This document shows, one piece after another, positions 5,940 to 36,251 of a stretch of DNA of 46,375 bases. Source of the DNA: an uncultured Flavobacteriales bacterium (lineage in GTDB: Bacteria; Bacteroidota; Bacteroidia; Flavobacteriales_D; Sanyastnellaceae); assembly GCA_943787435.1 (NCBI GenBank), contig CALSMK010000024.1:1-46375 (forward strand). Direction: 5' to 3'. The notes below the pieces were generated by a model. The model worked only from the letters and a program-made list of their open reading frames with translations, was not told the origin of the DNA and searched no databases. The translations under genes and the position numbers were made by a program. The number at the start of each line of letters is the position of its first letter. The stretch's first letter is position 1.

Positions 5940-8367
5940 CGCGGCGAGTGTGTTCAATCACCGCTCCATTTTCCCCTGGCTGAATCACTTGGATCAGATA
6001 AGATCCCGGCACCAAACCAGACGTGGAAACGGCCATCTTTCGGCCGCCTGTCCAACGTGCTGTGGAGAGGATGCGTCCTGTCAAATCGAGCCATTGCACT
6101 TCGGCTCCCTCTAAGGCTCCTGTCGAGAAGTTCAACCACAGGGACTCCCCTGAACGGATGGGGTTGGGACTGACCTCTAAGCTTGCCCCTGCGAGAACGC
6201 CGCCGATGCCGTTGGCTGTGGCGCAAGGGTCCACCAAATAGGGAACTGCATTTTGATACATGCTGTTGACCACCTCTGTGATGCCTTGAATGCAAAGCGT
6301 CTCTGTGGGCGCCTCTGTCCAGTAAATCCGGCACAACGAGGCCCACTCGTAATGCTTGGACATGGATTCATTTTCGTAGCTCAACCCAATGAGGGTGCCA
6401 CCGCCCAGCGCATGCGAGGGCTGAATGCTGTATTCCAATGGGTCGACCAAGCTCACGGCCTGCTGAATGCCACAGCTCACATCGAACTGGTATCCCAGAA
6501 TCCGGTTGTGGGGATTGAGCACTTCCACATCGAAAAAGCCTTGCTCCCAGTTGACTTCACCCAACCGGAACCAGACACTGTCGAAGGGATTCACAATGTG
6601 AGGAGCGGGAAACTGACACTTGTCGTGAAAGCCCGCACTGTCGGGACTTTCATGGGCAATGTCCCAATATTGGCAGCGGGCCATCAATGCCGCATCGGAC
6701 ACGGTGAGTTCGCCGTCTTGGTCGAGGTCATTGCACGCGGATGGCAAGAGGTCATCGCCCAGAATTCCATCCACATAGGCTTCGGAATCGGTCAGGTCTT
6801 GGTCGGCATCCAGATCCAAGTCCCCCATGAGCGCAGTGCCGCCGCAGTCTCCATTGCAGTCCATTTGCGCTGTGCCGTATGGCTCACCCGTGCAGTCTAC
6901 CAACTGAGCACAATCGTCCCAAATGTTGACCTCCAACTCTCCTGAGCTTCTGTCCATCTGAATGCAGACCACACCCCAGTTGTTTTCGTAATCGTTCTCC
7001 TGACGGCCCAATGCATCGGGACTGTAATCCCAATTCACGCGCACCACCAAGTGATACACGCCATCGGCAATCCCAGTCACGTCGATCCATTGGCAGGACA
7101 GTCCTGCCCCGTAAATGTCTCCGCAATGGGCAGAGATGCCCATGTTGGAACATCCGTATTGGAAGGTTCCGCCATCGCTGCACTCCAAGTCCATGACACA
7201 AAACCCGTTTTTGAATCCGATGGGCAGCATTTGACCGTCCATGGTGAACAGGTCGTACTTGGCGTACCCCTTGTAATGCCAATGGTTGTGGCAATCACCC
7301 CATTCAAACTGCTGTGTGGAGTCACTTTCGGCCGTGGTTCCGATGTAGTAATCGATGTCTCCAATGTTCTTGATGTGGGTGGTGAAGCGAACCAATTCCC
7401 GCTCACCGTAACCATTGAGGCACCCCTCTACGATGTAGCAGTTGTTTTCATCCACCATCATGGTTTCGGCTTGAAGGCTGTTTTCGATGGCGCTTTCGAC
7501 CACCATCAAATCCGGACCGGTGCACAGCGGATCACCCGGGTAAATGCAACTTCCGTTGTCCAACTCCGCTGCAGGATTGTAGTTGCAGGCCGCTTCATCG
7601 GTGCAGCCCTCAGGCAGCCCGACATAAGCCAATGTCCAGTCAAATTCATCGCAGCCTTCTCCTTCGGCACCGAGGTCAGCAAACCGGATCCAATAGGTGA
7701 CGCCTCCTTCCAACAGTACGTTGAGCTGTGCGCTTTCTTCATTGTCTTCGCAACCGCCCTGGTTGTCATCGTAATAGATGGACCCCTCATTGGTGTCGTC
7801 GAAGTTGTTCATGTTGCAGTAATCGTAGATCCACAACCGCGTATCGCACCCCGACCCACAGCTCGACAAGGCGAACATGCCATTGTTGGGTGGGGTGAAG
7901 GTCCACCATTGAACGTGGACATCGGCAGACACCGTCCCATAGTCGTCTTCGGTCAATTCAATGGCCTCTGAACACGTCCATCCCGGCGGGCAATCGATGG
8001 GGTGACTTTGACCATAACCGTAGTTGCCACTTCCCGTCACAAGCACTTCTCCATTCAAACTCAGCTGATAGGACGCTCCTGCGTTCAGGCCATCCCCGTA
8101 GCTGTCGTTCATGGTAAAAATCATGCAAGGCTGCCAATCCGCAGTGTCCAAGCAAAACGTAAACAACGTGTCCGCAGAATTGGTGACGTTTTGCTCCACC
8201 AGAACCGCCCCTGCACCATCGGTGAGTTCAAACGACATCTCTTGAGGCCAAGCATCGGGAACTATCGTGACTTGGAGGGTGTGCTCGCCGGGTTCGCAAA
8301 GGGACTGACCCCAGGAAAATAAAGGGCTCCCCAAAACGAGAAGCAGGCCCAATAAAATTCGGTTCAT
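5926..8367 (-). CDS. Secreted lysyl-oxidase-like protein with dockerin-like segment and T9SS tail
   Basis: 813 residues. ATG 8367 gives a clear signal peptide (MNRILLGLLLVLGSPLFSWG); the 23 residues upstream are polar and excluded. N-terminal beta-rich regions (22-250) are followed by one Cys repeat (GCTDEAACNYNP, about 259). Residues about 286-471 resemble lysyl oxidase (LOX, PF01186): WGDCHNHWHYKGY fits the copper-binding His cluster (about 355), and CQWIDVTGI (about 427) plus NDYENNWGVVC match the LOX C-terminal half. The lysine that forms the quinone cofactor in animal LOX (in DVKPGNY) appears to be alanine here (GIADGVY), while the partner Tyr is kept in NDYENN. Residues about 516-569 hold two Asp-rich loops (DLDLDADQDLTDSEAYV; DLDQDGELTVSDAALM), a dockerin-like pair. 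The last 90 residues (SPNPIRSGE...GSYLIQV) are a T9SS type A sorting domain. A copper protein acting outside the cell or on its surface is likely; amine oxidase activity is doubtful. Confidence 0.85.
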   Translation of the reverse strand: MNRILLGLLLVLGSPLFSWGQSLCEPGEHTLQVTIVPDAWPQEMSFELTDGAGAVLVEQNVTNSADTLFTFCLDTADWQPCMIFTMNDSYGDGLNAGASYQLSLNGEVLVTGSGNYGYGQSHPIDCPPGWTCSEAIELTEDDYGTVSADVHVQWWTFTPPNNGMFALSSCGSGCDTRLWIYDYCNMNNFDDTNEGSIYYDDNQGGCEDNEESAQLNVLLEGGVTYWIRFADLGAEGEGCDEFDWTLAYVGLPEGCTDEAACNYNPAAELDNGSCIYPGDPLCTGPDLMVVESAIENSLQAETMMVDENNCYIVEGCLNGYGERELVRFTTHIKNIGDIDYYIGTTAESDSTQQFEWGDCHNHWHYKGYAKYDLFTMDGQMLPIGFKNGFCVMDLECSDGGTFQYGCSNMGISAHCGDIYGAGLSCQWIDVTGIADGVYHLVVRVNWDYSPDALGRQENDYENNWGVVCIQMDRSSGELEVNIWDDCAQLVDCTGEPYGTAQMDCNGDCGGTALMGDLDLDADQDLTDSEAYVDGILGDDLLPSACNDLDQDGELTVSDAALMARCQYWDIAHESPDSAGFHDKCQFPAPHIVNPFDSVWFRLGEVNWEQGFFDVEVLNPHNRILGYQFDVSCGIQQAVSLVDPLEYSIQPSHALGGGTLIGLSYENESMSKHYEWASLCRIYWTEAPTETLCIQGITEVVNSMYQNAVPYLVDPCATANGIGGVLAGASLEVSPNPIRSGESLWLNFSTGALEGAEVQWLDLTGRILSTARWTGGRKMAVSTSGLVPGSYLIQVIQPGENGAVIEHTRRVTVR

Positions 8368-8372
8368 GTTGT

Positions 8373-8379
8373 CAATGTA
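8373..8379 (-). promoter_or_regulatory. Candidate -7 box of the lysyl-oxidase-like gene
   Basis: On the minus strand TACATTG is followed by five bases (ACAAC) and the ATG at 8367. It resembles the Bacteroidota -7 consensus TAnnTTTG with one T missing. The spacing places the expected transcript start at or next to the start codon. Confidence 0.4.
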
Positions 8380-8521
8380 AGGCGACTGCTTTTGCCCTTC
8401 TCCTTTTCGTCCCGCATGGGCTCGTTTGTCGGCCATTTAAAAGACCACTTGAGCCAACAGGTGAATTGAAAAAAATTCGTTGCCGTCAATTGTGAAACTT
8501 CGATTGGGGCAAAGGGTTGCT

Positions 8522-15726: not shown

Positions 15727-18243
15727 ATGGTCCGATTCATTGTTCCGTTTGCTTGTCTCTTGTCTGTCTTGTTCTCTCCAACATTGGAGGCTCAGATCAC
15801 CCGCTGCTCTTCCAACGAGCAGATGGAAGCACAACTCCAATCTGATACTGTATTTGCACGCAGTTTTTTCGCTCTGGAGCAAGCCTTAGAGCAAATGGCG
15901 TCGACGGGCTATCGAACCACCACTGACTACAACCTGCCAGTGGTGGTCCACATCATGCACGATGGCGATGCGGTCGGTGACGGAGCCAACCTGTCCAATG
16001 CACAAATTCAAAGCGCAATGGATGCGCTGAATGCCGACTTCGCAGGTGATTTCGGTGGCGCGGACATCGACATTCAATTTTCGCTGGCCGTGCGCGACCC
16101 TGAAGGGAATCCGACATCAGGCATCAACAGGATCAATGTCGCCGACTTCATTCCTGAGTTCACGGAACACGGTTTGGTGACCAATGACAGTCAGCACCCC
16201 TCTTCAGAAGGCCAAGTGAAGGCTCTGAGTCAGTGGCCCAACGATGACTATGTCAACATTTGGGTGCTGTCCAAATTGAATGGCGGCACCTCCCCCATTG
16301 GATTTGCCTATTTGCCTCCAGCGCCGAGCGCATTGGACGGCATCGTAGTCCACCACCGTGTATTTGGCGTGGGTGAGGAATACGATTTGATCAACAACTA
16401 CGATTTGAACCGCACCCTCACACATGAAGTGGGACACTATCTGGGCTTGTATCACACTTTTCACCTGACATCCGCATGTGGAAACGAGAGCAATTGCGCC
16501 TCCCAAGGGGACCGGGTTTGCGACACGCCGCAAACCACAGGATCTCTGAATTGCTCGGCTTTGGAATGCGAGGACACCATGGTCGAGAATTTCATGGACT
16601 ACAGCAATGACCCCTGCATGAGTTCCTTTACCGAAGGTCAGCGGACGAGAATGCGGAATGCTTTGACACAAAGCCGGACCGATTTGCTGGAGAGTGCCGG
16701 CAACATTCCTGTCGTGGCATTGGACGCTGGCGTATCCTCTGTGCAAGGTTTAATTCCGTTGGGTTGCAACCCCACCCATGAAGCCATGGCCGTCCTTCAA
16801 AATTTTGGAACCGACCCCATCACTTCTGTGACCGTTCACTTTCAACTCGACGGCGGGCAGGAGCACATGGTCAACTGGACGGGCGATTTGGCCCCGAGTG
16901 CCACTGAATTGGTGGCTCTGCCCTCTGTATCTGCTCCCATTGGACAGCATGAAATGACCGTTTGGACCACCACTCCAAATGACGAATATGCCCAGAATGA
17001 TTCCTTGACCACCGCTTTCGAAGTGGTTCCGGGAAACATGTTGACCATGGACATTCAATTCGACTTCCTGCCTTACGGCATCTCCTGGACCGTGGAAAAC
17101 GAGCAAGACATGACCATTCTTTCTGGGGGCGAATACGTCAATGCTGAATTTGCCAGTGAATTCATTTCTGTAGAAGGCTGTGCGACCCCTGGGTGCTATG
17201 CTTTGACCATCGAAGACTTGTTTGGCAACGGCATGCACTACAGCCCACCAGGGTGGTATGAACTGTCTGATTCAGACGGCAATGTTTTGGGTTCAGGCTC
17301 CGGCGACTTTGGCTCGGAACAAACCCATGAATTTTGTGTGGACCCCACCGACGTGGCTTCCTGCCCAGACTCAAATGGCAATGGCATTTGTGATGCCGAC
17401 GAAGACATGCTGGTCACCGACATTCCGGGCTGCATGGATGTACAGAGTTGCAACTACTCAGAGCTGGCGACAGTGGACGATGGGAGCTGTGAGTTTCTGG
17501 ACGCCCTCAATGACTGCGGTGGAGACTGTCCGTCAGATGTCGATGGCGATGGGGTTTGTGACAATGCCGAAGTCTACGGATGTGAGGATCCTTCTGCCTG
17601 CAACTACGAACCTGAAGCGACCGAAGACAACGGCTCGTGCACCTATCCTGAGGTCAACTATGACTGCTTTGGAAACGTGGTCAATGTTGTTTTGGGCTGC
17701 ACAGACCCAACGAGCTGCACGTTCGAACCTCAAGCCAACACCGATGACGGCAGTTGCGATTACCTCGACGCCTTGGGCGAATGCGGTGGGGATTGCCCCG
17801 AAGATGTCGACGAAGACGGGGTATGTGACAATGCCGAAATCTTGGGCTGCACGGACTCCACGGCCTGCAATTTTGAAGCATCAGCAACGGAAGAGGACAG
17901 CAGTTGCGAGTACGCCGAAGAGGGCTACGATTGCGAAGGGAATCCACTGATCAATTCCATCGAGGCTTGGAACGCTTCCAACCTCTCGCTCACGGCTTTT
18001 CCCAACCCCATTGATGGGGCGCAGTTGAACATCTCAGGGCTGCCCGGACCTGGCCTGTACCACATCCATGTCTTGGACTTGGCTGGCAAGCAGCTCTCAG
18101 CTGAAAGCATTCAAGCCCAAGGGGTCCAAAACATGTGGACTGTCCGCACTGAATTGGACGTGAAATCCGGTCTCTATTTGATTCAGGTCGCAACGGCCAA
18201 CGCCAAAAAGGTGGGCAACAGCCTTCGAATCCTGGTGAAATAA
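15727..18243 (+). CDS. Secreted M43-family metalloprotease with T9SS tail
   Basis: 838 residues with a signal peptide (MVRFIVPFACLLSVLFSPTLEAQ). Residues about 75-330 are a cytophagalysin/pappalysin-type (M43) zinc protease. The zinc site is HEVGHYLGLYH (about 231-241) and the Met-turn is ENFMDYSNDPC (about 286-296), with the conserved Cys-rich loop between. A beta domain follows (about 335-440). Residues about 568-731 hold four Cys repeats (GCMDVQSCNY, GCEDPSACNY, GCTDPTSCTF, GCTDSTACNF), two of them preceding Asp-rich CPSDVDGDGVCDNAE-type calcium-binding stretches. The last 80 residues (AFPNPIDGAQ... SGLYLIQVAT) are a T9SS type A sorting domain. It is probably a surface-bound or released protease that could supply peptides to the S46 peptidase. 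Confidence 0.93.
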   Translation: MVRFIVPFACLLSVLFSPTLEAQITRCSSNEQMEAQLQSDTVFARSFFALEQALEQMASTGYRTTTDYNLPVVVHIMHDGDAVGDGANLSNAQIQSAMDALNADFAGDFGGADIDIQFSLAVRDPEGNPTSGINRINVADFIPEFTEHGLVTNDSQHPSSEGQVKALSQWPNDDYVNIWVLSKLNGGTSPIGFAYLPPAPSALDGIVVHHRVFGVGEEYDLINNYDLNRTLTHEVGHYLGLYHTFHLTSACGNESNCASQGDRVCDTPQTTGSLNCSALECEDTMVENFMDYSNDPCMSSFTEGQRTRMRNALTQSRTDLLESAGNIPVVALDAGVSSVQGLIPLGCNPTHEAMAVLQNFGTDPITSVTVHFQLDGGQEHMVNWTGDLAPSATELVALPSVSAPIGQHEMTVWTTTPNDEYAQNDSLTTAFEVVPGNMLTMDIQFDFLPYGISWTVENEQDMTILSGGEYVNAEFASEFISVEGCATPGCYALTIEDLFGNGMHYSPPGWYELSDSDGNVLGSGSGDFGSEQTHEFCVDPTDVASCPDSNGNGICDADEDMLVTDIPGCMDVQSCNYSELATVDDGSCEFLDALNDCGGDCPSDVDGDGVCDNAEVYGCEDPSACNYEPEATEDNGSCTYPEVNYDCFGNVVNVVLGCTDPTSCTFEPQANTDDGSCDYLDALGECGGDCPEDVDEDGVCDNAEILGCTDSTACNFEASATEEDSSCEYAEEGYDCEGNPLINSIEAWNASNLSLTAFPNPIDGAQLNISGLPGPGLYHIHVLDLAGKQLSAESIQAQGVQNMWTVRTELDVKSGLYLIQVATANAKKVGNSLRILVK

Positions 18244-24261: not shown

Positions 24262-27200
24262 TTATTCGCAGATCTGTCCAAAGGCACCGAGAATGACCAG
24301 CAAGTCACCCACAGCTGTAGATCCGTCGCCATCAATGTCAGTGGGGCAAGAACTGCTTCCTGAGAACTCGCAAGTTCCATCCTCCATGTTGGCTGATGGG
24401 CTGTAGTTGTCAGCATCGTTGTAAGTACAACCGAACACAATGTCTGTAGCACAAGAACCATCGTCTTCACCAGCCCATGGGCTGAATTCAGCACTCAATG
24501 GATCTGTACATCCAGCGCAAGCGGTGCAGCTGCTGAAGCAAACCACATCCAAGACCAAGTTGTCTCCAGCCACCACAAACTCGCGGTTGTATCCGCCAAG
24601 TCCGTTGTCAACGCCGCACTCTGCAGGCACAGTCTCTTGACCAGGCCAGTCATTGCCGTTGATGTAAATGAACTGGTATGCACCTGCTGCCACTTGCAAC
24701 GTGTACTCGTAAAGATCGAGACCAGGTGATGTCATCATGGTCGAGCCTGGTGTCCAGCCCTGGAATGAGCCGGCTACGTGAACCCCTGAAGCAGAAACTT
24801 CTTGGAGGTTCATGTCCAAACGCAAGGTCACAGTGAACAAGCAAGAACCGTCGTCCGCAATGGCATCTGCATTGTAGTTCGAGGCATTTGAATTGGTACA
24901 ACCCGACACCACATCGCAAGCGTAGCAGCTGCTGTAGCATACCACGTCCAGAGTCGCATCACCTGAAACGGTCAGACCACGGTTTGCATAGGTGTCATTT
25001 GGATTAAAGTCACAAGGGGCGCCAATGGTCAAGGTCTCTTCACCATCGTTCAACTTGAACTTGTATTCAGCGTCTCCAGCTGCCATGACAACAGTCACTG
25101 TGTAGATACCATCCTCGTCGTCATCTGTCATGGGGACGCAAACACCGCACCATCCAACAAAGGATCCGTGCACATACACTGCATCTTCAGAAGTAGGATT
25201 CTCGCTGCTCATGTCCACTTGGAACGTGACGTTGTACTCGCATGAGCCATCGTCTGAGGTCGCGGCTGCGCTGTAGTTCACAGCTCCGGAATCGGTACAA
25301 CCGAGAATCTCACCTGTGCCTTCGCAGTCAGAACAGCTGTTCCAACATACTTGTGCCTCGCTCTGGTTGCCGAACAACTGAAGTACACGGTTGGTGAATC
25401 CAAAGTTCTCTGTCACACACGGAGACAGGCCTGCCAAGTTCTCTTGGGCATTCCATCCATTGACAGTGAACTTGTACTCATAGTAGTCACTTGGAAGATC
25501 CAAGGTCAATGTCCACACACCGTCCTCGTCGTCGTCTGACATAGGGTTGCAGGTTCCACACCAAGCGTCGCCGTTCAAGGTGAACTCTCCGTTCAAGTGA
25601 ACCGTGTCTGTGGCAGCCAAAGCGTACTCATTCATGTTCACGCTTAGCGTCACTGAATAGACACAAGACCCGTCATTGGCCGTGGCTGCAGAGTCATAGT
25701 TGGAAGCGGACTCATCGTTACAGCCGGCCACATCGTTTGCACCAACACAGGCCAAACAGGTTCCCCAACAAACGGTATCCAAGATCATGTCTCCCCCTCC
25801 GATCACATCGAGGTCACGGTTGGTGAAGCCACCTTCTTTGACCACACAAGGTCCAATGGGGTTGTCTCCAGGAGCCAAATCTTCCTGATCACTCCAAGCG
25901 TCCACTTGGTACTTGTATCGGTAATTGGCTCCTTCTGGAAGCTCAATCGTCGTGGTCCAAATTCCATCCTCGTCTTCGTCGGTCATGGCATTGCAAGTCC
26001 CGCAGAAGTTGTTCCATGTACCCGACACGTTCAGGGTGTCGAATGAACCACCGTAGTTGTTCATGTCCACGCTGAAGGTGACCGCCACATCACCACCCCC
26101 TGAAGGGGCGCCTGAGTAGAAGTAAATGTTGTCGAGGTAGATGTCCTGTGGAGCCGCATTGGCGCTGCCATCACTGTTGAACTGGCCGTCAAACTTCATT
26201 TGGAAGACGTTGTCCCAAGTCATGCCCTCAAAAGCAGACTTCGGAAGGTCAACGCTGTTCCATGAACCAGGAGTCACAGGAACTTCCACCAAGAATTCAC
26301 CGGCACCATCGCCATTGTTGATGGGCGACACCTTGACCAAGCGGTCTGAGTCTGCCGCCACCCAAATGTCGATGTGCAAGAACTCCATGGCTGATGCATT
26401 TACAGCAGCCAAGTCCGTTCCTTGGTAGTTGAAGTTGGTGTAAGCCAAAACCAAGTTGCCTGTCCCTGGGTCGTACTCCGGATTCACAGAACCGGACTGT
26501 CCCCAACCTGGGTTGTAGTTCGTGGCAATGTCATCGTATGATCCGCTGTAGACGCTGATCACGTTGGATGCATCCTGAGCAGGATCAGCCGCATTGTCAG
26601 TGGGGCCATCGCCTCCACCACCTCCGCCGTTACCGCCTTCGCAGTTGCCGTCGGTTCCACATTCGCCGAAGCAGAAGTTGAAGGTTGTGTCCTCAGTGAT
26701 GTTCACCACCTGACGGTCATTGAAATTGGCAGGGACTCCGCATGGCAAACCACCCAACTGCTCCTTGCAGCTGTAATCGCCACAAGCTCCGTTGGTGAAG
26801 ATGTAGAAACTGCTGAACCCTGAGGGTACTGTTTGGGTGATGGTCCATGTTCCATCTCCATTGTCCGTGAGCGGGTTGTCACCTGGGTTTCCAAAATTTC
26901 CGCCTCCAGCAAGGAATACGCCTTGGGTGGACACCTCTTCATTGGACATGTTGACTGTCCATGTGATGTCCACTGTTTCCTGGTTGTTTTGCTCGTCGCA
27001 AGTGCCGCAGTAGTCGAAGCACTGTACATCCAAGACCATGTCCGCCTCACCCAAGGTGAATCCGCGGTTGCCGTTGTTGTCGGTGGGCACAAAGTCACAC
27101 GCGGTGCCTCCGATGTTCTGCTCGTCTCCGCCCCAAGCGTTGATCATGTACTTGAACTCGTAGTCTCCGGGAACCAGATTGACCACACCAGTGTAGACAT

Positions 27201-29868
27201 TGTCGCCGTCCGTGTCGGTCAAGACGTTGTCGCAAGGACCACACCAACCGTCCAGTGAACCTGTGACGTAGATCGTCTCGTCGCCGTTCAATGCTGCATT
27301 GGCCATGTCCACTTGGAAGGTCACTGCGTATTCCGTGGCAGGAGATTCACATGTACCATCTGTGGTGCACTGACCAAAGCAAGTGCTCAATGTGATGTCT
27401 TCATTCACAGCTGCCAAAAGGCGGTCGTTGTAAGGTCCATTGGCGCACGGAAGTCCAATCAGGTTCTCCTTTGCATTCCAATCGCCGTTGTCGTTCGGGC
27501 TGTTCAGGTAAACATAATTACCGGAGTAACCCACAGGCACTGCAATTGTGACGGTCCATATGCCATCTTGGTCGGCATCAGACATGGCGTTGCCCTGCGC
27601 TCCTCCGAAGTAGTCACCACCACCAACAAACATGCCGTTGGGTCCTACAGTAATGTTGGCTGTGTTGACATTGAAGGTCACGTCAGCCGTCTCTCCTGAG
27701 GGGGGGCCTGAACCCGTTCCATCGTTCCAGAAGTAGAGGTTGTCGTAATAGACGTCCCAGCCAGCTCCGTTGGCTGACCCGTCAGCGTTGAACTGACCGT
27801 CAAACTTCATCTGGAAGACATTGTCCCAAGACATTCCCTCAAAGGAAGCCTTCGTCAAATCCACGCTGTTCCATGAACCAGGAGTCAGGGGAACCTCCAC
27901 CAAAAACTCGCCAGCGCCAGTACCTCCATTGACCGGAGTCACTTTCAACATGCGGTCATTGTCGGCAGCCACCCAAACGTCCAAGTGGAGGTGGGTCATG
28001 CCAGACAAGTCTGCAGACACGAGGTCCGTGCCCTGGTAGTTGAAGTTGGCATACTCCATCACCGCATTGCCGGTGCCTGGATCAAACTCCGTATTCACCG
28101 TACCGGACTGTCCCCAGCCTGGGTTGTAGTTGCTGGCGATGTTGTCGTATGAACCACCATACACGCTCACCACGTCACCCGCATCCAATGTGGGGTCCGC
28201 TGCGTTGTCCGTTGGGGTTGCATCACCACCGCCGCCACCGCCGCCTTCATTGTTTTGCTCGTCGCAAGTGCCGCAGTAGTCGAAGCACTGTACATCCAAG
28301 ACCATGTCCGCCTCACCCAAGGTGAATCCGCGGTTGCCGTTGTTGTCGGTGGGCACAAAGTCACACGCGGTGCCTCCGATGTTCTGCTCGTCTCCGCCCC
28401 AAGCGTTGATCATGTACTTGAACTCGTAGTCTCCGGGAACCAGATTGACCACACCAGTGTAGACATTGTCGCCGTCCGTGTCGGTCAAGACGTTGTCGCA
28501 AGGACCACACCAACCGTCCAGTGAACCTGTGACGTAGATCGTCTCGTCGCCGTTCAATGCTGCATTGGCCATGTCCACTTGGAAGGTCACTGCGTATTCC
28601 GTGGCAGGAGATTCACATGTACCATCTGTGGTGCACTGACCAAAGCAAGTGCTCAATGTGATGTCTTCATTCACAGCTGCCAAAAGGCGATCGTTGTAAG
28701 GTCCATTGGCGCACGGAAGTCCAATCAGGTTCTCCTTTGCATTCCAATCGCCGTTGTCGTTCGGGCTGTTCAGGTAAACATAATTGCCGGAGTAACCCAC
28801 AGGCACTGCAATTGTGACGGTCCATATGCCATCCTGGTCGGCATCAGACATGGCGTTGCCCTGCGCTCCTCCGAAGTAGTCACCACCACCAACAAACATG
28901 CCGTTGGGTCCTACAGTAATGTTGGCTGTGTTGACATTGAAGGTCACGTCAGCCGTCTCTCCTGAGGGGGGGCCTGAACCCGTTCCATCGTTCCAGAAGT
29001 AGAGGTTGTCGTAATAGACGTCCCAGCCAGCTCCGTTGGCTGACCCGTCAGCGTTGAACTGACCGTCAAACTTCATCTGGAAGACATTGTCCCAAGACAT
29101 TCCCTCAAAGGAAGCCTTCGTCAAATCCACGCTGTTCCATGAACCAGGAGTCAGGGGAACCTCCACCAAAAACTCGCCAGCGCCAGTACCTCCATTGACC
29201 GGAGTCACTTTCAACATGCGGTCATTGTCGGCAGCCACCCAAACGTCCAAGTGGAGGTGGGTCATGCCAGACAAGTCTGCAGACACGAGGTCCGTGCCCT
29301 GGTAGTTGAAGTTGGCATACTCCATCACCGCATTGCCGGTGCCTGGATCAAACTCCGTATTCACCGTACCGGACTGTCCCCAGCCTGGGTTGTAGTTGCT
29401 GGCGATGTTGTCGTATGAACCACCATACACGCTCACCACGTCACCCGCATCCAATGTGGGGTCCGCTGCGTTGTCCGTTGGGGTTGTGCTGGAAGCAGCC
29501 TCGACAATGATGGTGCCCACCATGCCAGCGGCCGCGTGGGATCCAATGCTGCAATCATAGTTATAGGTGCCAGGAATGGTCAGGCTGATCGTCCCCATGC
29601 ATGCTCCTTCGGTTGTGCCACTGTTGGCGCCAAGGGAGAAAGATTCTGGGTTGTTCCATGTATCACCGATGGTGCTGGCAGTGCCGTTGACATTGTGAAA
29701 ACCTGCTTCATTCACGAAAGCGATGGTTTCCCCGGCCGTCACGGTCAATGTTGAAGGGGTGTAGTAGAAACTGCCAGCGAGGACCGTGTGGTCTGCTCCT
29801 GTGCAGTCTTGAGCTTGAGCAATGCCGAAGCTGAACACGGCAAGACATAACAGCAAAAAGTTGCGCAT
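24262..29868 (-). CDS. Giant secreted modular protein: cupredoxin, carbohydrate-binding-like repeats, dockerin-like tail
   Basis: 1868 residues. ATG 29868 gives signal peptide MRNFLLLCLAVFSFGIAQAQ. Residues about 20-125 are a plastocyanin-like domain with copper ligands in GFHNVNG and YDCSIGSHAAAGM (Cys, His, Met). Two identical 412-residue units follow (about 128-540 and 550-961), separated by a poly-Gly linker. Each unit has a beta-sandwich module (YNPGWGQSGTVN; NFNYQGTDL; FQMKFDGQFN; VYYDNLYFW) like those attached to flavobacterial glycoside hydrolases, plus two starch-binding-like E-set modules (VTFQVDMANAAL; VYTGVVNLVPGDYEFKYMIN). A diverged third unit (about 1095-1260) and further E-set modules alternate with five Cys repeats. 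The end is CPTDIDGDGSTAVGDLLVIL...ICE, not a T9SS domain. No catalytic motif was found. It may bind glycans at the surface. A strong terminator follows. Confidence 0.8.
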   Translation of the reverse strand: MRNFLLLCLAVFSFGIAQAQDCTGADHTVLAGSFYYTPSTLTVTAGETIAFVNEAGFHNVNGTASTIGDTWNNPESFSLGANSGTTEGACMGTISLTIPGTYNYDCSIGSHAAAGMVGTIIVEAASSTTPTDNAADPTLDAGDVVSVYGGSYDNIASNYNPGWGQSGTVNTEFDPGTGNAVMEYANFNYQGTDLVSADLSGMTHLHLDVWVAADNDRMLKVTPVNGGTGAGEFLVEVPLTPGSWNSVDLTKASFEGMSWDNVFQMKFDGQFNADGSANGAGWDVYYDNLYFWNDGTGSGPPSGETADVTFNVNTANITVGPNGMFVGGGDYFGGAQGNAMSDADQDGIWTVTIAVPVGYSGNYVYLNSPNDNGDWNAKENLIGLPCANGPYNDRLLAAVNEDITLSTCFGQCTTDGTCESPATEYAVTFQVDMANAALNGDETIYVTGSLDGWCGPCDNVLTDTDGDNVYTGVVNLVPGDYEFKYMINAWGGDEQNIGGTACDFVPTDNNGNRGFTLGEADMVLDVQCFDYCGTCDEQNNEGGGGGGGDATPTDNAADPTLDAGDVVSVYGGSYDNIASNYNPGWGQSGTVNTEFDPGTGNAVMEYANFNYQGTDLVSADLSGMTHLHLDVWVAADNDRMLKVTPVNGGTGAGEFLVEVPLTPGSWNSVDLTKASFEGMSWDNVFQMKFDGQFNADGSANGAGWDVYYDNLYFWNDGTGSGPPSGETADVTFNVNTANITVGPNGMFVGGGDYFGGAQGNAMSDADQDGIWTVTIAVPVGYSGNYVYLNSPNDNGDWNAKENLIGLPCANGPYNDRLLAAVNEDITLSTCFGQCTTDGTCESPATEYAVTFQVDMANAALNGDETIYVTGSLDGWCGPCDNVLTDTDGDNVYTGVVNLVPGDYEFKYMINAWGGDEQNIGGTACDFVPTDNNGNRGFTLGEADMVLDVQCFDYCGTCDEQNNQETVDITWTVNMSNEEVSTQGVFLAGGGNFGNPGDNPLTDNGDGTWTITQTVPSGFSSFYIFTNGACGDYSCKEQLGGLPCGVPANFNDRQVVNITEDTTFNFCFGECGTDGNCEGGNGGGGGGDGPTDNAADPAQDASNVISVYSGSYDDIATNYNPGWGQSGSVNPEYDPGTGNLVLAYTNFNYQGTDLAAVNASAMEFLHIDIWVAADSDRLVKVSPINNGDGAGEFLVEVPVTPGSWNSVDLPKSAFEGMTWDNVFQMKFDGQFNSDGSANAAPQDIYLDNIYFYSGAPSGGGDVAVTFSVDMNNYGGSFDTLNVSGTWNNFCGTCNAMTDEDEDGIWTTTIELPEGANYRYKYQVDAWSDQEDLAPGDNPIGPCVVKEGGFTNRDLDVIGGGDMILDTVCWGTCLACVGANDVAGCNDESASNYDSAATANDGSCVYSVTLSVNMNEYALAATDTVHLNGEFTLNGDAWCGTCNPMSDDDEDGVWTLTLDLPSDYYEYKFTVNGWNAQENLAGLSPCVTENFGFTNRVLQLFGNQSEAQVCWNSCSDCEGTGEILGCTDSGAVNYSAAATSDDGSCEYNVTFQVDMSSENPTSEDAVYVHGSFVGWCGVCVPMTDDDEDGIYTVTVVMAAGDAEYKFKLNDGEETLTIGAPCDFNPNDTYANRGLTVSGDATLDVVCYSSCYACDVVSGCTNSNASNYNADAIADDGSCLFTVTLRLDMNLQEVSASGVHVAGSFQGWTPGSTMMTSPGLDLYEYTLQVAAGAYQFIYINGNDWPGQETVPAECGVDNGLGGYNREFVVAGDNLVLDVVCFSSCTACAGCTDPLSAEFSPWAGEDDGSCATDIVFGCTYNDADNYSPSANMEDGTCEFSGSSSCPTDIDGDGSTAVGDLLVILGAFGQICE
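26984..28220 (-). repeat. 1237-bp direct repeat, copy B (C-terminal copy)
   Basis: Matches 28250-29486 over its full length with three base differences found by eye: 27423 vs 28689, 27520 vs 28786 and 27569 vs 28835. All three are synonymous, so the two encoded units are identical in sequence. The period is 1266 bp. Confidence 0.97.
28250..29486 (-). repeat. 1237-bp direct repeat, copy A (N-terminal copy)
   Basis: The partner of 26984-28220. The copies are separated by 29 bp (28221-28249) that encode a run of glycines followed by Asp-Ala. Unit boundaries coincide with domain boundaries. Confidence 0.97.
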
Positions 29869-29884
29869 AGTGGTTGGGTTACGA

Positions 29885-29940
29885 TTAGGGTTAATCCTAA
29901 GCACGGCAATATAGAACGCAGAAGGTGTACATCGTACACC
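29885..29940. promoter_or_regulatory. Two palindromes upstream of the giant gene
   Basis: TTAGGGTTAATCCTAA (29885-29900) is palindromic except for one base pair. GGTGTAC-ATC-GTACACC (29924-29940) is a perfect 7-bp inverted repeat. They lie about 17 and 56 bp before the ATG at 29868, on either side of a TATATTG -7-like box (about 29907-29913, minus strand). Operator sites for a dimeric regulator are plausible; neither motif is recognised. Confidence 0.4.
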
Positions 29941-30066
29941 AACTCCATGAAAAGGGTCACGACATATTCAATGGCGGCCGGGAGAAGACATATAATCAAC
30001 CTTTAACGCCCAATCCCGGGCCGAGAACACGTCAAGTCAACAGATACAAATTTGTTGACAGCGGAC

Positions 30067-31413
30067 TCACACCATCTCCTCCTTTTTCACGAGCAGATTG
30101 AGCCCTCCCGCCACCACAAGACTGATGCCGGCCAACAACATGGTTTGAATCACGTCTTCACCCAAAAAGGTTTTGTAAGCCCAATTGATGCCACCCAAAG
30201 CCGCCACAATCTGTGGAATCACAATGAACATGTTGAACACCCCCATGCCCACCCCCATTTTCTGAGGGTCAACCGCTCCAGAAAGCATCGCGTAGGGCAT
30301 GCTCAGCATGCTTCCCCAAGCCAAGCCAACCAGGGCGAAGCTCCACTTCAAGTTGCCTGCACTTTCAGGGGTCCACCACATCATAGAGATGAACCCAAGT
30401 CCCCCCATGACCAAGCTCACGAGATGGGTCCACCGCCGATCCAGACCCCTCCTTGAGGTCCAAATGGACAGCAAAAGCGCAAAGGCCATACTGCTCAAGC
30501 CATAGACCCCCATCGCACTCGACACTGAATTCGCCGCTGCGTTGAAGGCTGCATTCTTCGCCTCGTATTGGACCACCCCTTCCATGGGAAGCGGTGCTTG
30601 AAACACAAACTCGGTCAAAGCGGGCGTGGCGTAAGACCACATGGTGAAAAATGCGAACCAACTGAAAAACTGGACCGCTCCTAATTTGATCATCACCGGC
30701 GGCATGCTCCGAATAAACCCCATGATTTCAATGAACCCGGCTCCAAACCCGCGCGTCTGCTCTTTGGCCTTTTGAAACGCATCCATATCTGCCGGAGGCT
30801 CCTCGGTTGTGGTGAACACCGTGATCAGAATGCTCGACATGAAAACAAATGCCCCGATGGCAAATGACACAAATACGCTGTCCGGGATTTCTCCCACCCC
30901 CGCTTCATTGGCCACGCCCAATTTGGTCACCATCCAAGGCAGGTTGGAGGCCACCCAAGTGCCAATGCCAATGATCAAGGTCTGCAACACAAATCCATAA
31001 TTGCGCTGACCATCGGGGAGTTTATCGGCCACCAAAGCTCGAAAAGGCTCCATGCTGATGTTGATGCTCGCATCCAAGACCCACAAGAACCCAGCGGCCA
31101 TCCACAAGGCACTGCTGTATGGCATGAAAAACAGGGCAACAGAACTCAATACCGCTCCAATCAAGAAGTAGGGACGCCTGCGCCCCCACCTCGGGTGCCA
31201 TGTTCGATCACTCAAGTGCCCGATGATGGGCTGAACAATCAGTCCAGTCAGAGGAGCGGCAATCCACAACATGGGAATGTCGTCTTGGGAAGCACCCAGG
31301 GTCTGGAAGATTCTCGACATGTTTCCTCCTTGCAGAGCAAATCCAAATTGAATGCCGAGAAAACCGAAACTCATGTTCCAGATTTCCCAGAAGGAAAGTT
31401 GCTTGTTCTTCAT
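30067..31413 (-). CDS. MFS transporter, SLC45/sugar-cation-symport-like
   Basis: 448 residues with about 12 hydrophobic segments. The opening MKNKQLSFWEIWNMSFGFLGIQFGFALQ, then PLTGLIVQPIIGHLSDRTW and GRRRPYFLIGAVLSSVALFFMP, is characteristic of bacterial relatives of the SLC45 / glycoside-pentoside-hexuronide type transporters for maltose or sucrose. The RhxGRRRP loop between helices 2 and 3 is well conserved. ATG 31413 is chosen because the longer reading (31482) adds 23 residues through the terminator hairpin. Its position between secreted proteins with carbohydrate-binding-like modules suggests uptake of an oligosaccharide, which is inference. Confidence 0.87.
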   Translation of the reverse strand: MKNKQLSFWEIWNMSFGFLGIQFGFALQGGNMSRIFQTLGASQDDIPMLWIAAPLTGLIVQPIIGHLSDRTWHPRWGRRRPYFLIGAVLSSVALFFMPYSSALWMAAGFLWVLDASINISMEPFRALVADKLPDGQRNYGFVLQTLIIGIGTWVASNLPWMVTKLGVANEAGVGEIPDSVFVSFAIGAFVFMSSILITVFTTTEEPPADMDAFQKAKEQTRGFGAGFIEIMGFIRSMPPVMIKLGAVQFFSWFAFFTMWSYATPALTEFVFQAPLPMEGVVQYEAKNAAFNAAANSVSSAMGVYGLSSMAFALLLSIWTSRRGLDRRWTHLVSLVMGGLGFISMMWWTPESAGNLKWSFALVGLAWGSMLSMPYAMLSGAVDPQKMGVGMGVFNMFIVIPQIVAALGGINWAYKTFLGEDVIQTMLLAGISLVVAGGLNLLVKKEEMV

Positions 31414-31422
31414 GTTGGGTCC

Positions 31423-31457
31423 AAAAAAAATGCCCCCGACCCAGTGGCCGGAGGCAT
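31423..31457 (-). terminator. Terminator after the MopE-like secreted protein gene
   Basis: Stem ATGCCcCCG (31430-31438) with CGGaGGCAT (31449-31457), one mismatch, 10-nt loop. On the minus strand it is followed by eight T (31423-31430). It lies 30 nt after the stop at 31487 and only 10 nt before the MFS start. Confidence 0.75.
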
Positions 31458-31486
31458 CAAATGTAATTCTGAAGCTCCTCAATGGA

Positions 31487-34273
31487 TCATTCGCAGTCGG
31501 AGCTGAAGAATGTCAAGAACACCAGCAAATCTCCCGCACCAATGGAACCATTGGCGTCAAAGTCTGCAGGACACCCTGCGTCAATGGTAAAGGTGCAAGT
31601 GCCGTTGTCGCGGTTTGCAATGGGCTCAAAGTTGTTGGCATCGCTGTACGTGCAGCCGTCCAAAATGATGGAGATACAAGTCCCCTCTGCAAAGGTGTTT
31701 GCGCTGGCATCGAACTCCAAGTAGGCGGGGTCTGTGCAACCACTGCTGATCGCCGTGGCACAGCTTCCGTCGTCGACATCTGCTGAAGGGTCAAATTCTA
31801 AGAAAGACTCGTCTTGACAGCCACCATAGAGGCAGGCTCCGTTTTCGCGGTTTGCAGCAGGATCGAAGTTGAACGCATCTGCATACGTGCATCCCAAAAC
31901 CACCAAAGTGACACAATCCGATGCCTCTGAAAGATTCGCAGCCTCATCAAACTCGAGGTAGTTGGGGTCAGTACAACCGGAAACGATCAAGGTTGTACAA
32001 GACGCATTGTCGGAGTTGGCGTTGCCGTCAAACTCGAGGTAATTGGGGTCCGTGCATCCTTCGAAGATGCAAGTGCCGTCATCCGCCGTGTTGTCTTCTT
32101 CATAATTGGTTGCAGACGGATATGCGCATCCGACGCATGTGGTGAAATCACAATCACCACTGTCGGTGTTTGCACTTGGATCGAAGTTGCAGGCCGTGGC
32201 ATTCAAACATCCGTAAACAAAGACGGTGGTTCCTCCGTCCACAATCAAAGCGTCATCGGAATCGGCCTCTCCCCCACCTCCGCTGTCTGAAGCGGTCTCC
32301 GAAGACGTGGTCTCTGTGCTGCCATCAACGGTGCGCAGAGCTCCCCCTGCCACTGTATAGGTCAATCCAGCCTGCATGGTGAAAGACACCCCAACCGGCA
32401 ACGTCAAACGCGCAATCCTGACTGCATTGGCACAACCAGGTCGGTTGTAGAGCGCGGCACAGTGGTTTTCAGTCAGGCCATCGTCTTCTGAAGCCAAGGT
32501 CCAACCCAAGGTGTCCCCTTCATTGCTCAGCGCTTCGCTGTCGAAAACATCCTGATCTTCTACAGTGACCGGATCAAACCCAATGGGAGTCAAGTCTGGT
32601 CCATTGCCTACACTGCCCCCAATGGTCAACCAGCTGTCCCACAGGCAAGCGGTGTTGGTGTAGGTTAACCCATCGAATTCAACGGTTAAAGGAACCGCTC
32701 CATTGGGTGTCCATTGATCGCAGGCCTCGGATTGATACAAGGTGTCGAAAGCGGTGATGCGCAAGCGAACATCACCAGACTTCACACCAATCACGCTGTT
32801 GAGCTGCAAAGCATCCGGTGGCAGCAAGGCATATACCTCGTTGGTGTAGGTGCTTTCGTTGCCGTTGGCACCTTCAAAATCAATTTGAATGGGCGCAATC
32901 GCCAGAATTCCTGAATACAGGCAGTTGTCATCATTGGCAATGATGACCTCTGGATTGTAGTTGGTCGCCTCTGGGTCTGTGCAACCCGCACACGAGTCGT
33001 AATCGCATTCATCATCACTGGTGATGATGGCAAAGGCATCGTAGTTGCAGGCGCTTGGATTTCCACAGCCCACACAACTGATGAATTCACAGTTGTCTTC
33101 TTCCGGTCCGGCTTCAGGGTCATAGTTACAGGCATCGGGCTGACCGCAACCCGCCACTTCGTTTGGATCGATGCAGTTCCCGTTCAGGTCGGACTCGAAT
33201 AAATCGGGATTGGTGTCATCACAATCAATGGGCTGCGACAAATAGGCTTCTCCAAACTCAGAACAATTGATGTTGAAAGGAGACCCTATCACATCGTCCT
33301 CATCCGCGCTCCGGTAGCCATCATTGTCTACATCGCGGTAGCAGGACTCGCCACCGTTGCAATCGCCGTCAATTCCATCTCCCACAATGTCATAGGGGTT
33401 GCCTGGGTATGAAATGGCGCTGTTGTCATTGCAGTCTCCATCCACAGCCGCGTAGCCTTCGGGCACACCGCAGAGCACCACCGGGGTGGTTCCAAAACCG
33501 TCTCCGTCCAAGTCCACGTAGACTGTGTCCAGATATTCACAGGGTTCAGATTCACATGTCTGTCCAATTTGAAAGGTGAGCAGGGTATCGTTCACTTGAT
33601 CGCCATTGGGAAACAGCTGCAGGTTCAATTGACCAGACAATTCTCCAGATGTGGTAAACTGACCCAACAAAACCCGACCATTCTCATCCACCTCTCCATT
33701 GGTTTCTGCACTGGTGGTAAACCAGCTTCCACCGACGGCATCGTCCATGACGATGTTGCCTCCAGGCAATCCGTTACCCGGTTCAAATAGAGCTGCCCAT
33801 GGCTGCTCGGATGAGGCCACATACTGAACCGCATTCTCTCCTTCAGACAAGACAGCCGCTTCTTCAATGCCAATGGTGACATAACTGTCGTACACCAAAT
33901 TGGGAAAGGACGGATACAAGAAAGGGCTCCAGTTCGGAGAGACTGCTCCCAATGGATGCTGGTAAAACTCTGTGGTCGTATTGATCATCAGCGGAGAATC
34001 AACGTCTCCGAACACGGCAGTCACAAAGTCCATGGGCGACATGGATTCGAAATAAAGACGGTAGGTCGTCATGCCCGCGAGTTCTCCTGCATCTGCTCCG
34101 TGCACCTGAACCACTTCAGTGCTCATACAATATCCTCCTGCATCAGGATCGTAGTTGCAGGCGGCCTCATCCATGCACTGCGCGAGGAGACCTTGTCCAC
34201 TGCACATGAAAAACACGCCAAAAAGCACGGACAGTGTCAGGCCTAGAAAACGATTGGGGCGGGTCTTATTCAT
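31487..34273 (-). CDS. Secreted Cys-repeat protein with MopE-like metal-binding motifs and dockerin-like tail
   Basis: 928 residues with a signal peptide (LTLSVLFGVFFMCSGQGLLAQ). Residues about 50-230 hold a domain shared with the neighbouring gene at 34.5 kb (VVQVHGADAGELAGMTTYRL; YDSYVTIGIE; GRVLLGQFTTSG). Residues about 255-375 contain MopE-type putative metal-binding segments (YVDLDGDGFGT; DGDCNDN; GIDGDCNG; CYRDVDNDGY; IDCDDTNPD). About 12 Cys repeats are spread over the rest (for example GCLNATACNFDPSANTDSGD), several of a variant form PNYLEFD. A central beta region (about 455-640) includes CLWDSWLTIGG and could be a distant copy of the N-terminal domain. The end is CPADFDANGSIGAGDLLVFL...DCE; no T9SS domain is seen. 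Function unknown, probably a calcium-stabilised surface protein. Confidence 0.75.
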   Translation of the reverse strand: MNKTRPNRFLGLTLSVLFGVFFMCSGQGLLAQCMDEAACNYDPDAGGYCMSTEVVQVHGADAGELAGMTTYRLYFESMSPMDFVTAVFGDVDSPLMINTTTEFYQHPLGAVSPNWSPFLYPSFPNLVYDSYVTIGIEEAAVLSEGENAVQYVASSEQPWAALFEPGNGLPGGNIVMDDAVGGSWFTTSAETNGEVDENGRVLLGQFTTSGELSGQLNLQLFPNGDQVNDTLLTFQIGQTCESEPCEYLDTVYVDLDGDGFGTTPVVLCGVPEGYAAVDGDCNDNSAISYPGNPYDIVGDGIDGDCNGGESCYRDVDNDGYRSADEDDVIGSPFNINCSEFGEAYLSQPIDCDDTNPDLFESDLNGNCIDPNEVAGCGQPDACNYDPEAGPEEDNCEFISCVGCGNPSACNYDAFAIITSDDECDYDSCAGCTDPEATNYNPEVIIANDDNCLYSGILAIAPIQIDFEGANGNESTYTNEVYALLPPDALQLNSVIGVKSGDVRLRITAFDTLYQSEACDQWTPNGAVPLTVEFDGLTYTNTACLWDSWLTIGGSVGNGPDLTPIGFDPVTVEDQDVFDSEALSNEGDTLGWTLASEDDGLTENHCAALYNRPGCANAVRIARLTLPVGVSFTMQAGLTYTVAGGALRTVDGSTETTSSETASDSGGGGEADSDDALIVDGGTTVFVYGCLNATACNFDPSANTDSGDCDFTTCVGCAYPSATNYEEDNTADDGTCIFEGCTDPNYLEFDGNANSDNASCTTLIVSGCTDPNYLEFDEAANLSEASDCVTLVVLGCTYADAFNFDPAANRENGACLYGGCQDESFLEFDPSADVDDGSCATAISSGCTDPAYLEFDASANTFAEGTCISIILDGCTYSDANNFEPIANRDNGTCTFTIDAGCPADFDANGSIGAGDLLVFLTFFSSDCE

Positions 34274-34450
34274 CGCAGAAGTGTTTGAGCTCCTTGAATT
34301 TACTCCTAACCGCGCCTTGAGAAAAGCTGACCTTTGTCAGCGTTTGTGTAAGTTCGACGAACGGGCCGTTTAAACGCACCAAATGGCCCGCACGGCATGA
34401 CCTTGTGCGGACCACTTGACAATTGTCAGTTTTTAAATGGGGCTTAAGCT

Positions 34451-34466
34451 TCCCCGAAGCGGGGGA
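34451..34466 (-). terminator. Possible weak terminator after the 34.5-kb gene
   Basis: TCCCCG (34451-34456) can pair with CGGGGGA (34460-34466) with one bulged base and a 3-nt loop, directly after the stop codon. The following minus-strand sequence has only a short T run, so this is weak. Confidence 0.3.
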
Positions 34467-36251
34467 TTACTCTCCGCAAGGCTGACCGTAGAGCGCCAAA
34501 AACACAAGAAGGTCGGCCGATCCAATCAGTTGGTTTCCGTCTGTGTCATACGCGCAATCTCCACCTCCGGAGCAATCAAATTCGCATGAGCCATCATCAA
34601 GGGTGGCCGCCGCGTCATAATTGGTGGCGTCACCATATGTGCAACCCTGAGAGCCGGTCACCAAGAACTGGCAAGTCCCATCGTCATTGGTGGCGTCTGC
34701 ATTGTAATTCTCGGCTTCTGAATCCGTGCAACCGCTGATGACACAAGAACCGTCGTCATCTGTGGCCAATGGATTGTAGTTGTCGGCGGTGCTGTTGGTG
34801 CAACCAGGAACCTCATCCTCGTCGCAAACTCCATCTCCGTCGCTGTCATTCAGGCAGTTGCCGGAACAATCCACCGTGTTGTTGGGATATCCGACTGGAA
34901 ACTCGCACAAGGAGTTGTCCTCAATGACCGCTTGCGGGTTGTAGTTACATGCGTCCACATCTACGCAGCCAGCGCAGGTCAAGAAATCACAGCTTCCATC
35001 GTCAAAATCAGCCAGTGGATTGTAGTTACAAGCTCCTTGATCCGTGCAACCTGGCGTGACCACAGGAAAAGTCAGAGTCTGTCCGGTCACCTGTTTGTTT
35101 TCGCCTGCGGAACTCCTGTATTGGATGTTCAATAAGATGTCTACAATGCCGTCCGTGGTGAATTGTCCAAGCAGAACACGCCCTTGGTCATCTGGGAACG
35201 CATCTGGCTCGAGGTCTGGGAGGATGTACCATGTCCCCCCCACGGCGTTGTCAATGATCAAGTCTCCTCCGGCCTCAAACCCTAAGAAGTCGGCACCAAT
35301 GAAATCAACAGAACCAGAAACATCTTCTGAACCAATGGTCACCCAGCTGTCGTACTCCAAAAATTCAAAAGAATCGAACAGCAGCGCATTCACCGAGGTG
35401 GCCAAGGCTCCTCCGAGCGCATCTTGGTAAAAGGAACCCGTTGTGGTGATGGTCAGAGCTGTGTCTTGTAAACCGTAAACCGCCACCACTTGGGCGTCCG
35501 GGTCATCAAAGTTGGCATAGACGCGATAAGTGTCGAATCCTTCAGCGATGGTCTCGTTCTCCCCGACGAGGGTGTTTTCCCCAACCAGTTCAAATGACAA
35601 CCCGGTAAAGTCCGTCGGTTCATAGCCCACAGTCAAACCGGTCTCGTTGTAGACATTCAGTTGGGCATCCCTCCACTGAAGGTTGCATGTGAAATTCCAC
35701 GTTCCTGCAGTCGTCAGCTGAGCCAACAGGATTTGACCATTTGCATCCACTGCGGATTGAATTTGGTCCGGAGTGACGAATACAGACCCGCCCACGCCGT
35801 CGTTGACGAAGAAGTTCCCACCGTCTTCAAAGTCAATGATGGCTGAATTCCAACCCGGACCTCCCACTTGAGAGGCCGCTGTGGGCACCTCGCTGTCCTC
35901 TTGACCAATGGTGACCCAAGAGTCGTAAGGCAGGTTTTGGAACGTTCCATACAGCAGCGGATTGATGGAGACTGGCGTAAAACCGCCCAAATCATCTTGA
36001 TAAAAACCTGCACTGGAACTGATGTCCATGCCAAAAGGGCTCTCAGCATACAAAGCCTGAGCAATGTCTGTGGCATCGTTAAAATTGGCATAAACCCGAT
36101 AGGTGGTCATGCCGGCCAATGCACCCGCATCAGGCCCATGGACCTGAACCACCTCATAGGACAACCCGGTAAAGTCGGCCTTGGCCAGAAGAACCATAAA
36201 AAAGAAAGACGCAAATGCTGCGCAACGAGCAAGGAATTGGAGTTTCGGCAT
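34467..36251 (-). CDS. Secreted protein with two copies of an unrecognised domain, Cys repeats and dockerin-like tail
   Basis: 594 residues; signal peptide in the first 26 (LARCAAFASFFFMVLLAKA). Two tandem copies of a roughly 170-residue domain follow (about 32-205 and 213-395). Each shows TYRVYANF, SFYQDALGG or AGFYQDDLGG, YDSWVTIG, a GGSVF or GGTWY strand, and GRVLLGQFTT or GQILLAQLTT. The same domain opens the 31.5-kb protein. Residues about 400-560 carry five Cys repeats (first GCTDQGACNYNPLADFDDG) and one Asp-rich CLNDSDGDGVCDEDE segment. The C-terminus is CAYDTDGNQLIGSADLLVFL...PCGE. No T9SS domain is seen. A TAAATTG box lies seven bases before the ATG. Function unknown; co-orientation suggests it works with the 31.5-kb protein. 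Confidence 0.75.
   Translation of the reverse strand: MPKLQFLARCAAFASFFFMVLLAKADFTGLSYEVVQVHGPDAGALAGMTTYRVYANFNDATDIAQALYAESPFGMDISSSAGFYQDDLGGFTPVSINPLLYGTFQNLPYDSWVTIGQEDSEVPTAASQVGGPGWNSAIIDFEDGGNFFVNDGVGGSVFVTPDQIQSAVDANGQILLAQLTTAGTWNFTCNLQWRDAQLNVYNETGLTVGYEPTDFTGLSFELVGENTLVGENETIAEGFDTYRVYANFDDPDAQVVAVYGLQDTALTITTTGSFYQDALGGALATSVNALLFDSFEFLEYDSWVTIGSEDVSGSVDFIGADFLGFEAGGDLIIDNAVGGTWYILPDLEPDAFPDDQGRVLLGQFTTDGIVDILLNIQYRSSAGENKQVTGQTLTFPVVTPGCTDQGACNYNPLADFDDGSCDFLTCAGCVDVDACNYNPQAVIEDNSLCEFPVGYPNNTVDCSGNCLNDSDGDGVCDEDEVPGCTNSTADNYNPLATDDDGSCVISGCTDSEAENYNADATNDDGTCQFLVTGSQGCTYGDATNYDAAATLDDGSCEFDCSGGGDCAYDTDGNQLIGSADLLVFLALYGQPCGE

Follow-up and report, generated by a model that had tools for sequence, protein, structure and literature searches.

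The window analysed here, a 46,375-nucleotide contig of an uncultured Flavobacteriales bacterium (CALSMK010000024.1 of assembly GCA_943787435.1), encodes three secreted proteins, P0001, P0002 and P0003, which end in a common bipartite module composed of a cysteine repeat of the GCTY subtype and a short, cysteine-flanked unit with an EF-hand-like loop. We lean towards the view that this tail belongs to the dockerin superfamily and serves as a C-terminal anchor, that it is related, as a single unit, to the domain of the NCBIfam model NF041540 ('GC-type dockerin domain-anchored protein'), and that it is used in place of the C-terminal tails of the type IX secretion system (T9SS). This view rests on the position of the unit at the end of its carriers, the dockerin-type residues of its loop, the homology of its tandem form to NF041540, the fact that few of its carriers also have a T9SS tail, and the exchange of one kind of tail for the other.

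Three secreted proteins of the window share a bipartite tail

The three proteins all have a signal-peptide-like start, as judged by eye. They and the two parts of their tails are located as follows, in window coordinates:

24262..29868, minus strand: P0001, secreted; plastocyanin-like N-terminus, several CBM48/CBM20-like domains (CBM, carbohydrate-binding module), Cys repeats, bipartite tail
24265..24348, minus strand: P0001 terminal unit, 28 residues, single, dockerin-like, Cys-flanked
24370..24432, minus strand: P0001 GCTY-type Cys repeat, immediately ahead of the unit
31487..34273, minus strand: P0002, secreted; a domain in common with P0003, Cys repeats, bipartite tail
31490..31573, minus strand: P0002 terminal unit, 28 residues, single, dockerin-like, Cys-flanked
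31595..31657, minus strand: P0002 GCTY-type Cys repeat, immediately ahead of the unit
34467..36251, minus strand: P0003, secreted; an unnamed beta-rich domain in two copies, Cys repeats, bipartite tail
34470..34556, minus strand: P0003 terminal unit, 29 residues, single, dockerin-like, Cys-flanked
34584..34646, minus strand: P0003 GCTY-type Cys repeat, immediately ahead of the unit

In the minus-strand translation the last Cys repeat reads GCTYNDADNY in P0001, GCTYSDANNF in P0002 (which has two additional GCxY repeats, neither adjoining the unit) and GCTYGDATNY in P0003. It is followed by a cysteine and an EF-hand-like stretch (DIDGDGSTAVGDLL, DFDANGSIGAGDLL and DTDGNQLIGSADLL, respectively), then by DLLVxL and, at the stop, by ICE, DCE or CGE. 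All of the motifs from which an earlier reading of the letters alone (the sequence-only reading) had proposed a common C-terminal module are therefore present in the translation, with the tails aligning over 57-60 residues and those of P0002 and P0003 each being 51% identical to that of P0001. The terminal glutamate, which had been counted as part of the module, does not belong to it; the residue after the last Cys of the unit may be E, D, N, P, Q, another residue or none at all.

Profile scans of the window's proteins gave no T9SS tail match in P0001-P0003, TIGR04183 included. Three other proteins had been said to carry normal T9SS type A tails instead, and were scored against TIGR04183, for which the cut-off is 23 bits:

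5926..8436, minus strand: lysyl-oxidase-like (LOX) protein, T9SS type A-like tail under the cut-off, 20.0 bits
12097..13995, minus strand: SprB-repeat-like protein, T9SS type A tail, 20.7 bits in hmmscan and 23.3 bits in the genome search
15727..18243, plus strand: M43 peptidase, Cys repeats, T9SS type A tail over the cut-off, 25.5 bits

The tails of all three are indeed type A-like, but in hmmscan the M43 peptidase alone passes the cut-off, and the LOX protein is not among the TIGR04183 matches of the genome search.

The unit lies at the very end of most of its carriers

The genome to which the window belongs (G000; 2.12 Mb in 34 contigs, 78.5% complete) contains 79 matches to a profile of the three tails, and since the best of those outside the window reaches an E-value of 8.3e-11, the likeness of the tails goes beyond chance. 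After the sequence around these matches had been examined, a second profile was built from 33 terminal units and applied at a threshold of E<=0.001. It finds the unit in 52 frames, in 44 of which the last unit ends no more than 4 residues from the stop; at this threshold 23 of the terminal frames have a single unit, 19 have two and 2 have three. Six frames carry the unit immediately after the signal peptide (five of them without the leading Cys), and two were classed as internal. Three more frames with an N-terminal unit are reached by the first, weaker profile only, and with these included the terminal frames make up 44 of 55. Some frames are short fragments, cut off by a frameshift or by the end of a contig (C7:81372, C17:1311, C21:146201 and C20:29872 are examples), as is C20:30206, one of the two internal frames. 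Across the aligned units, the flanking Cys and the calcium ligands are kept in nearly all cases, and the carriers include a glycoside hydrolase, a nuclease, and lysyl-oxidase-like and choice-of-anchor proteins.

The six N-terminal single units in this genome lie at C7:72930, C7:77067, C28:5565, C4:34437, C21:136312 and C6:135827, and the five that lack the leading Cys read YNPDxNGDG...DL; by eye, some of these proteins look FISUMP-like.

In G027, a one-contig genome from another genus of the same family, 56 of the 57 module frames are terminal (54 by the script's limit of 4 residues, and L274 and L305 by eye), while the frame at L276 continues for about 45 residues past the unit with no T9SS tail visible. 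A scan of genome_contigs with four bipartite tails returned at least 340 relatives, and the best 79 loci, a query-biased set, were used; the unit is terminal in all 79, lying no more than 3 residues before the stop in 78 and 4 residues before it in one. The record titles of these named loci point mostly to Flavobacteriales, Crocinitomicaceae, Cryomorphaceae or Bacteroidetes metagenome-assembled genomes, and those reading Rhodopirellula (L108), Euryarchaeota (L092 and L113) and Chryseobacterium (L140) may be mislabelled bins. The strict placement at the extreme C-terminus that had been claimed for the module thus describes the great majority of carriers in all three sets, but not the frames of the window's genome with an N-terminal unit.

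The unit is related to GC-type dockerins

When compared with NF041540 (cut-off 29 bits), three tandem tails scored 36.8 bits, over the cut-off, 25.7 and 22.6 bits. Four of the five matches in the window's own genome count as over the cut-off, two of these only jointly with their neighbours, and single-unit tails match the model weakly, 38 of 49 of them at E<=0.01, with a best E-value of 6.2e-6. The Pfam model Dockerin_1 (PF00404; gathering score 22.9) scores five own-genome tails at 17.7, 10.0, 21.2, 17.8 and 18.1 bits, all under its cut-off, and at E<=0.001 it matches 2 of 40 module proteins (best E-value 2e-6). In other phyla, NF041540 probably covers planctomycetes.

The EF-type loop itself is highly regular. 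Over 139 units, a count in which the three window tails appear twice, Asp occupies positions 1 and 12 in all 139, Asp or Asn position 5 in 138, Asp, Asn, Ser or Thr position 3 in 137, and Gly position 6 in 117. The units hence carry the calcium-ligand pattern of PF00404 (D1, N/D3, D5, D12), and these are the ligand positions given for a solved dockerin in PMC8063739. NF041540 asks for two EF units, and the window tails have one each; functional, non-duplicated half-dockerins are mentioned for Ruminococcus flavefaciens in a single sentence of that paper. With this precedent, the NF041540 matches and the ligand-type loop lead us to describe the tails of P0001-P0003 as half dockerins of the GC type.

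Comparison with known C-terminal domains makes clear where the likeness ends. Like NF041540 proteins, the own-genome tandem tails have two EF-type loops, a Gly-Cys that ends the first unit, flanking Cys, and a C-terminal position on secreted proteins; the window tails differ in having one unit, with the GCTY repeat in the place of the first. Cellulosomal type I dockerins (PF00404) share the ligand positions and the helix after the loop, but the units here are Cys-flanked, the tested tails fall under the Pfam cut-off, and the genus has no cohesin over the cut-off. T9SS type A tails (TIGR04183 / PF18962) are similarly C-terminal, occur on signal-peptide proteins and are exchanged with the unit in choice-of-anchor B proteins, although they differ from it in sequence and predicted fold. 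Type B and type C tails are given as alternative C-terminal signals in Bacteroidota in PMC12618676 and PMC10202324; their models are absent among the first 25 of 38 families listed for 40 module proteins, and PorP/SprF numbers here show no link to the unit. Within the literature collection searched, no paper mentions 'GC-type dockerin', or dockerin together with Crocinitomicaceae, and nothing on this tail came up. The tail is ordinary in its loop and helix; what is unusual is the organism that carries it, its build from a half plus a GCTY repeat, and its use where T9SS tails would otherwise be.

A GCTY repeat takes the place ahead of the single unit

The sequence-only reading had singled out the GCTY subtype in the three tails, and this proves correct and quantitative across the window's genome. 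Of the 15 repeats immediately before a terminal unit, 14 have Tyr as their fourth residue, as against 7 of 200 others; as two of those seven also adjoin a unit, the figures become 16 of 17 beside a unit and 5 of 198 elsewhere. The same holds in G027, where the unit was found independently of GCTY (15 of 18 beside a unit, 8 of 553 among the other repeats of named loci). Repeat and unit together span 55-60 residues, about the length of a tandem tail, and the GCTY repeat may cap, or replace, the missing dockerin half. An AlphaFold2 (AF2) model of the tail has a mean local confidence (pLDDT) of 87.6 and a global score (pTM) of 0.45, with one helix in the unit.

The unit and T9SS tails rarely coincide and have been exchanged

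TIGR04183 marks 64 places in the window's genome, 45 of them over the cut-off, so that 44 frames ending in the unit stand beside 45 T9SS type A tails; G027 has at least 150 T9SS matches and 57 module frames. In the window's genome a TIGR04183 place overlaps just one of the 52 module frames, at C4:29875, which encodes an enzyme of glycoside hydrolase family 3 (GH3), and the same fusion is the one protein among 40 scanned module proteins that matches TIGR04183. The N-terminal part of this glycosidase (C4:29875-33618, L048) has a CBM-like segment and closes with a copy of the GCTY-unit module, while its C-terminus is a T9SS tail. Contig C8 of another genome, G001, probably encodes the same fusion, as judged from one module match and one T9SS match that lie on one strand there in frames of equal length (1158 residues). 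In G027, no T9SS frame coincides with a module frame among the matches listed, as checked by eye.

A family in which both kinds of tail occur allowed a closer view. The choice-of-anchor B set (TIGR04312) comprised 71 stretches, a part of all matches, with 75 domain matches, of which 68 were usable. Thirty-five of these proteins end in the unit (34 in tandem form and one, L251 of G025, in the bipartite single form), 30 have a T9SS-type tail, 3 have another end, and none has both. TIGR04183 at E<=0.01 recognises 29 of the 30 tails labelled T9SS and none of the 35 unit-ended proteins, 10 of which match NF041540. The claim that the module excludes T9SS tails accordingly holds for this family and for nearly all frames of the window's genome, and fails for the GH3 enzyme and perhaps for its G001 counterpart.

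A tree of the shared choice-of-anchor B domain requires the unit and the T9SS tail to have replaced one another twice, both times because of well supported branches, and four changes are needed for all three kinds of tail. The G025 protein is nested within a well supported T9SS clade. From this position and the two forced changes it follows that, while tail type is mostly bound to clade, exchange has occurred. Other ends in this family (L173 of G060, L180 of G029 and L160 of G089) include a ...LGREV... tail and one made of dockerin-like repeats that lack Cys. A similar contrast was seen by eye in a LOX-like pair of the window's genome, with a T9SS-like tail in the window protein at 5926-8436 and a tandem unit at C14:688-2082.

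The unit is largely confined to one family

At E<=1e-5, the unit was found in 59 of the 61 genomes searched from the window's family; of 39 other genomes of the order, 4 have it, each with a single match. Within the window's genus, the 17 genomes have 37-83 matches each (units rather than frames; scoring stopped at 83 candidates per genome, so that the high counts are lower bounds), and some genera of the family have 0-2 copies. Among 296 evenly sampled Bacteroidota genomes, NF041540 was matched in two, both from this family. The bipartite profile was matched in four, and the two of these that lie outside the family have a single partial match apiece. The unit is thus clade-restricted, belonging mostly to one Flavobacteriales family, most genomes of which carry it on tens of proteins.

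PorP/SprF shuttles were considered as a partner and set aside, because by eye their gene counts do not track module counts. The N-terminal domain of P0003 and P0002 was also considered as a candidate hidden cohesin, and no cohesin appeared among the best 50 of 342 Foldseek rows obtained with a low-confidence model (pLDDT 61.9).

Further observations on the window proteins

P0001 contains a tandem duplication (window positions 26984-28249 and 28250-29515) of 1266 bases, or 422 residues, the copies of which are 97.9% identical, with differences mostly concentrated at one end; the duplication is either recent or its copies have been kept alike by conversion. The CBM48-like region of the same protein matches NF052315 ('type IX secretion system plug protein') in three stretches below the cut-off (60.1 of 100 bits). 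A domain of about 190 residues, with no Pfam or NCBIfam match, occurs twice in P0003 (35040-35618 and 35619-36179) and once in P0002 (33608-34129), and has relatives in the frames that come directly after the module gene in L103, L121, L123, L125 and L127. The Cys repeats of P0003 (residues 506-541) show a weak sequence match to MPEG-1 chains (E-value 0.61), and in Foldseek the P0001 tail model also matches MPEG-1 structures (24 columns, 0.7-0.8 A, 42% identity, E-values 3-5).

Discussion

As we picture it, a Sec signal peptide would export the protein. The tail, its EF-type calcium loop and helix pinned by a cysteine on either side and the GCTY repeat ahead of them acting as a cap, would then retain the protein by binding a receptor of the envelope or a scaffold on the cell surface. 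Calcium binding, a disulfide between the flanking Cys, capping, docking to an envelope receptor and a surface location are the inferred parts of this scheme. Of the sorting, anchoring or docking role proposed by the sequence-only reading, the docking part fits the homology to dockerins, and the proposal is borne out in part.

Several results weigh against an anchoring dockerin. P0001-P0003 themselves match neither NF041540 nor Dockerin_1 at E<=1. The pTM of the AF2 model leaves the packing of the two halves of the tail unfixed, and Foldseek returned weak matches only for that model, to EF hands and to one dockerin (E-value 4.6). No cohesin-like partner of the kind once envisaged emerged, as Pfam cohesin (PF00963) has no match over the cut-off in any of the 17 genomes of the genus, where a divergent cohesin would escape detection; one of them, G013, has a single sub-cut-off match containing stops. 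Among 100 relatives cohesin occurs over the cut-off in 9, unrelated by eye to the number of modules. Tail type is mostly clade-bound, the 65 labelled choice-of-anchor B proteins having switched just twice between unit and T9SS tail, and placement at the end of the protein is also what would be expected of a sorting signal.

This last point leads to the main rival, in which the type IX machinery, or a shuttle protein, would read the tail instead of type A, B or C tails, making it an export signal of a new class for passage of the outer membrane. We regard this as rather unlikely, even though the extreme C-terminal position, the typical secreted enzymes among the carriers, and the fact that T9SS tails rarely co-occur with the unit and exchange with it are all in keeping with it. 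Parts of the T9SS are also present, with the PorP/SprF family in 100 of 100 genomes, and type B tails use special PorP/SprF shuttles, according to PMC12618676 and PMC9143113. Yet PorP/SprF numbers, compared by eye, are no higher in genomes with more modules, and the predicted EF loop and helix differ from T9SS tails. Furthermore, the GH3 protein has an internal unit in addition to a T9SS tail, and other proteins carry the unit near their N-terminus; such cases are easier to reconcile with binding than with a signal that works only at the end of a protein.

It is improbable that the tail is instead a partnerless end-cap, stapled by calcium and a disulfide, which stabilises secreted Cys-repeat proteins and shields their C-terminus. 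Many single units are preceded by Cys repeats, with the special GCTY repeat adjoining, and the AF2 model is locally confident, both of which speak for such a cap. However, tandem units also end proteins whose tails have no Cys repeat visible by eye, the way in which unit and T9SS tail replace one another among choice-of-anchor B proteins points to sorting or anchoring, and the unit is almost missing from the other Bacteroidota sampled. Lineage-specific proliferation of a repeat with no common function, which would account for tens of copies in most genomes of mostly one family, is scarcely credible given that calcium ligands and flanking Cys are retained in nearly all aligned units and that the unit nearly always sits at the protein end.

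T9SS tails are a main means by which surface and secreted proteins of Bacteroidota are recognised, both in experiments and in annotation, and a prediction based on them would miss the location of proteins that carry the unit. Because unit and T9SS tail occur within one protein family, swapping of tails can directly probe tail function, and the tail could be used as bait for its putative receptor. More tentatively, a whole family of Flavobacteriales may possess a second general C-terminal code for sorting and anchoring beside the T9SS. Dockerin-type tails, among them bipartite ones with a specialised Cys repeat where the other dockerin half would be, would direct secreted proteins, tens of them in each genome, to a non-cohesin receptor, and proteins would be able to switch from one code to the other in the course of evolution.

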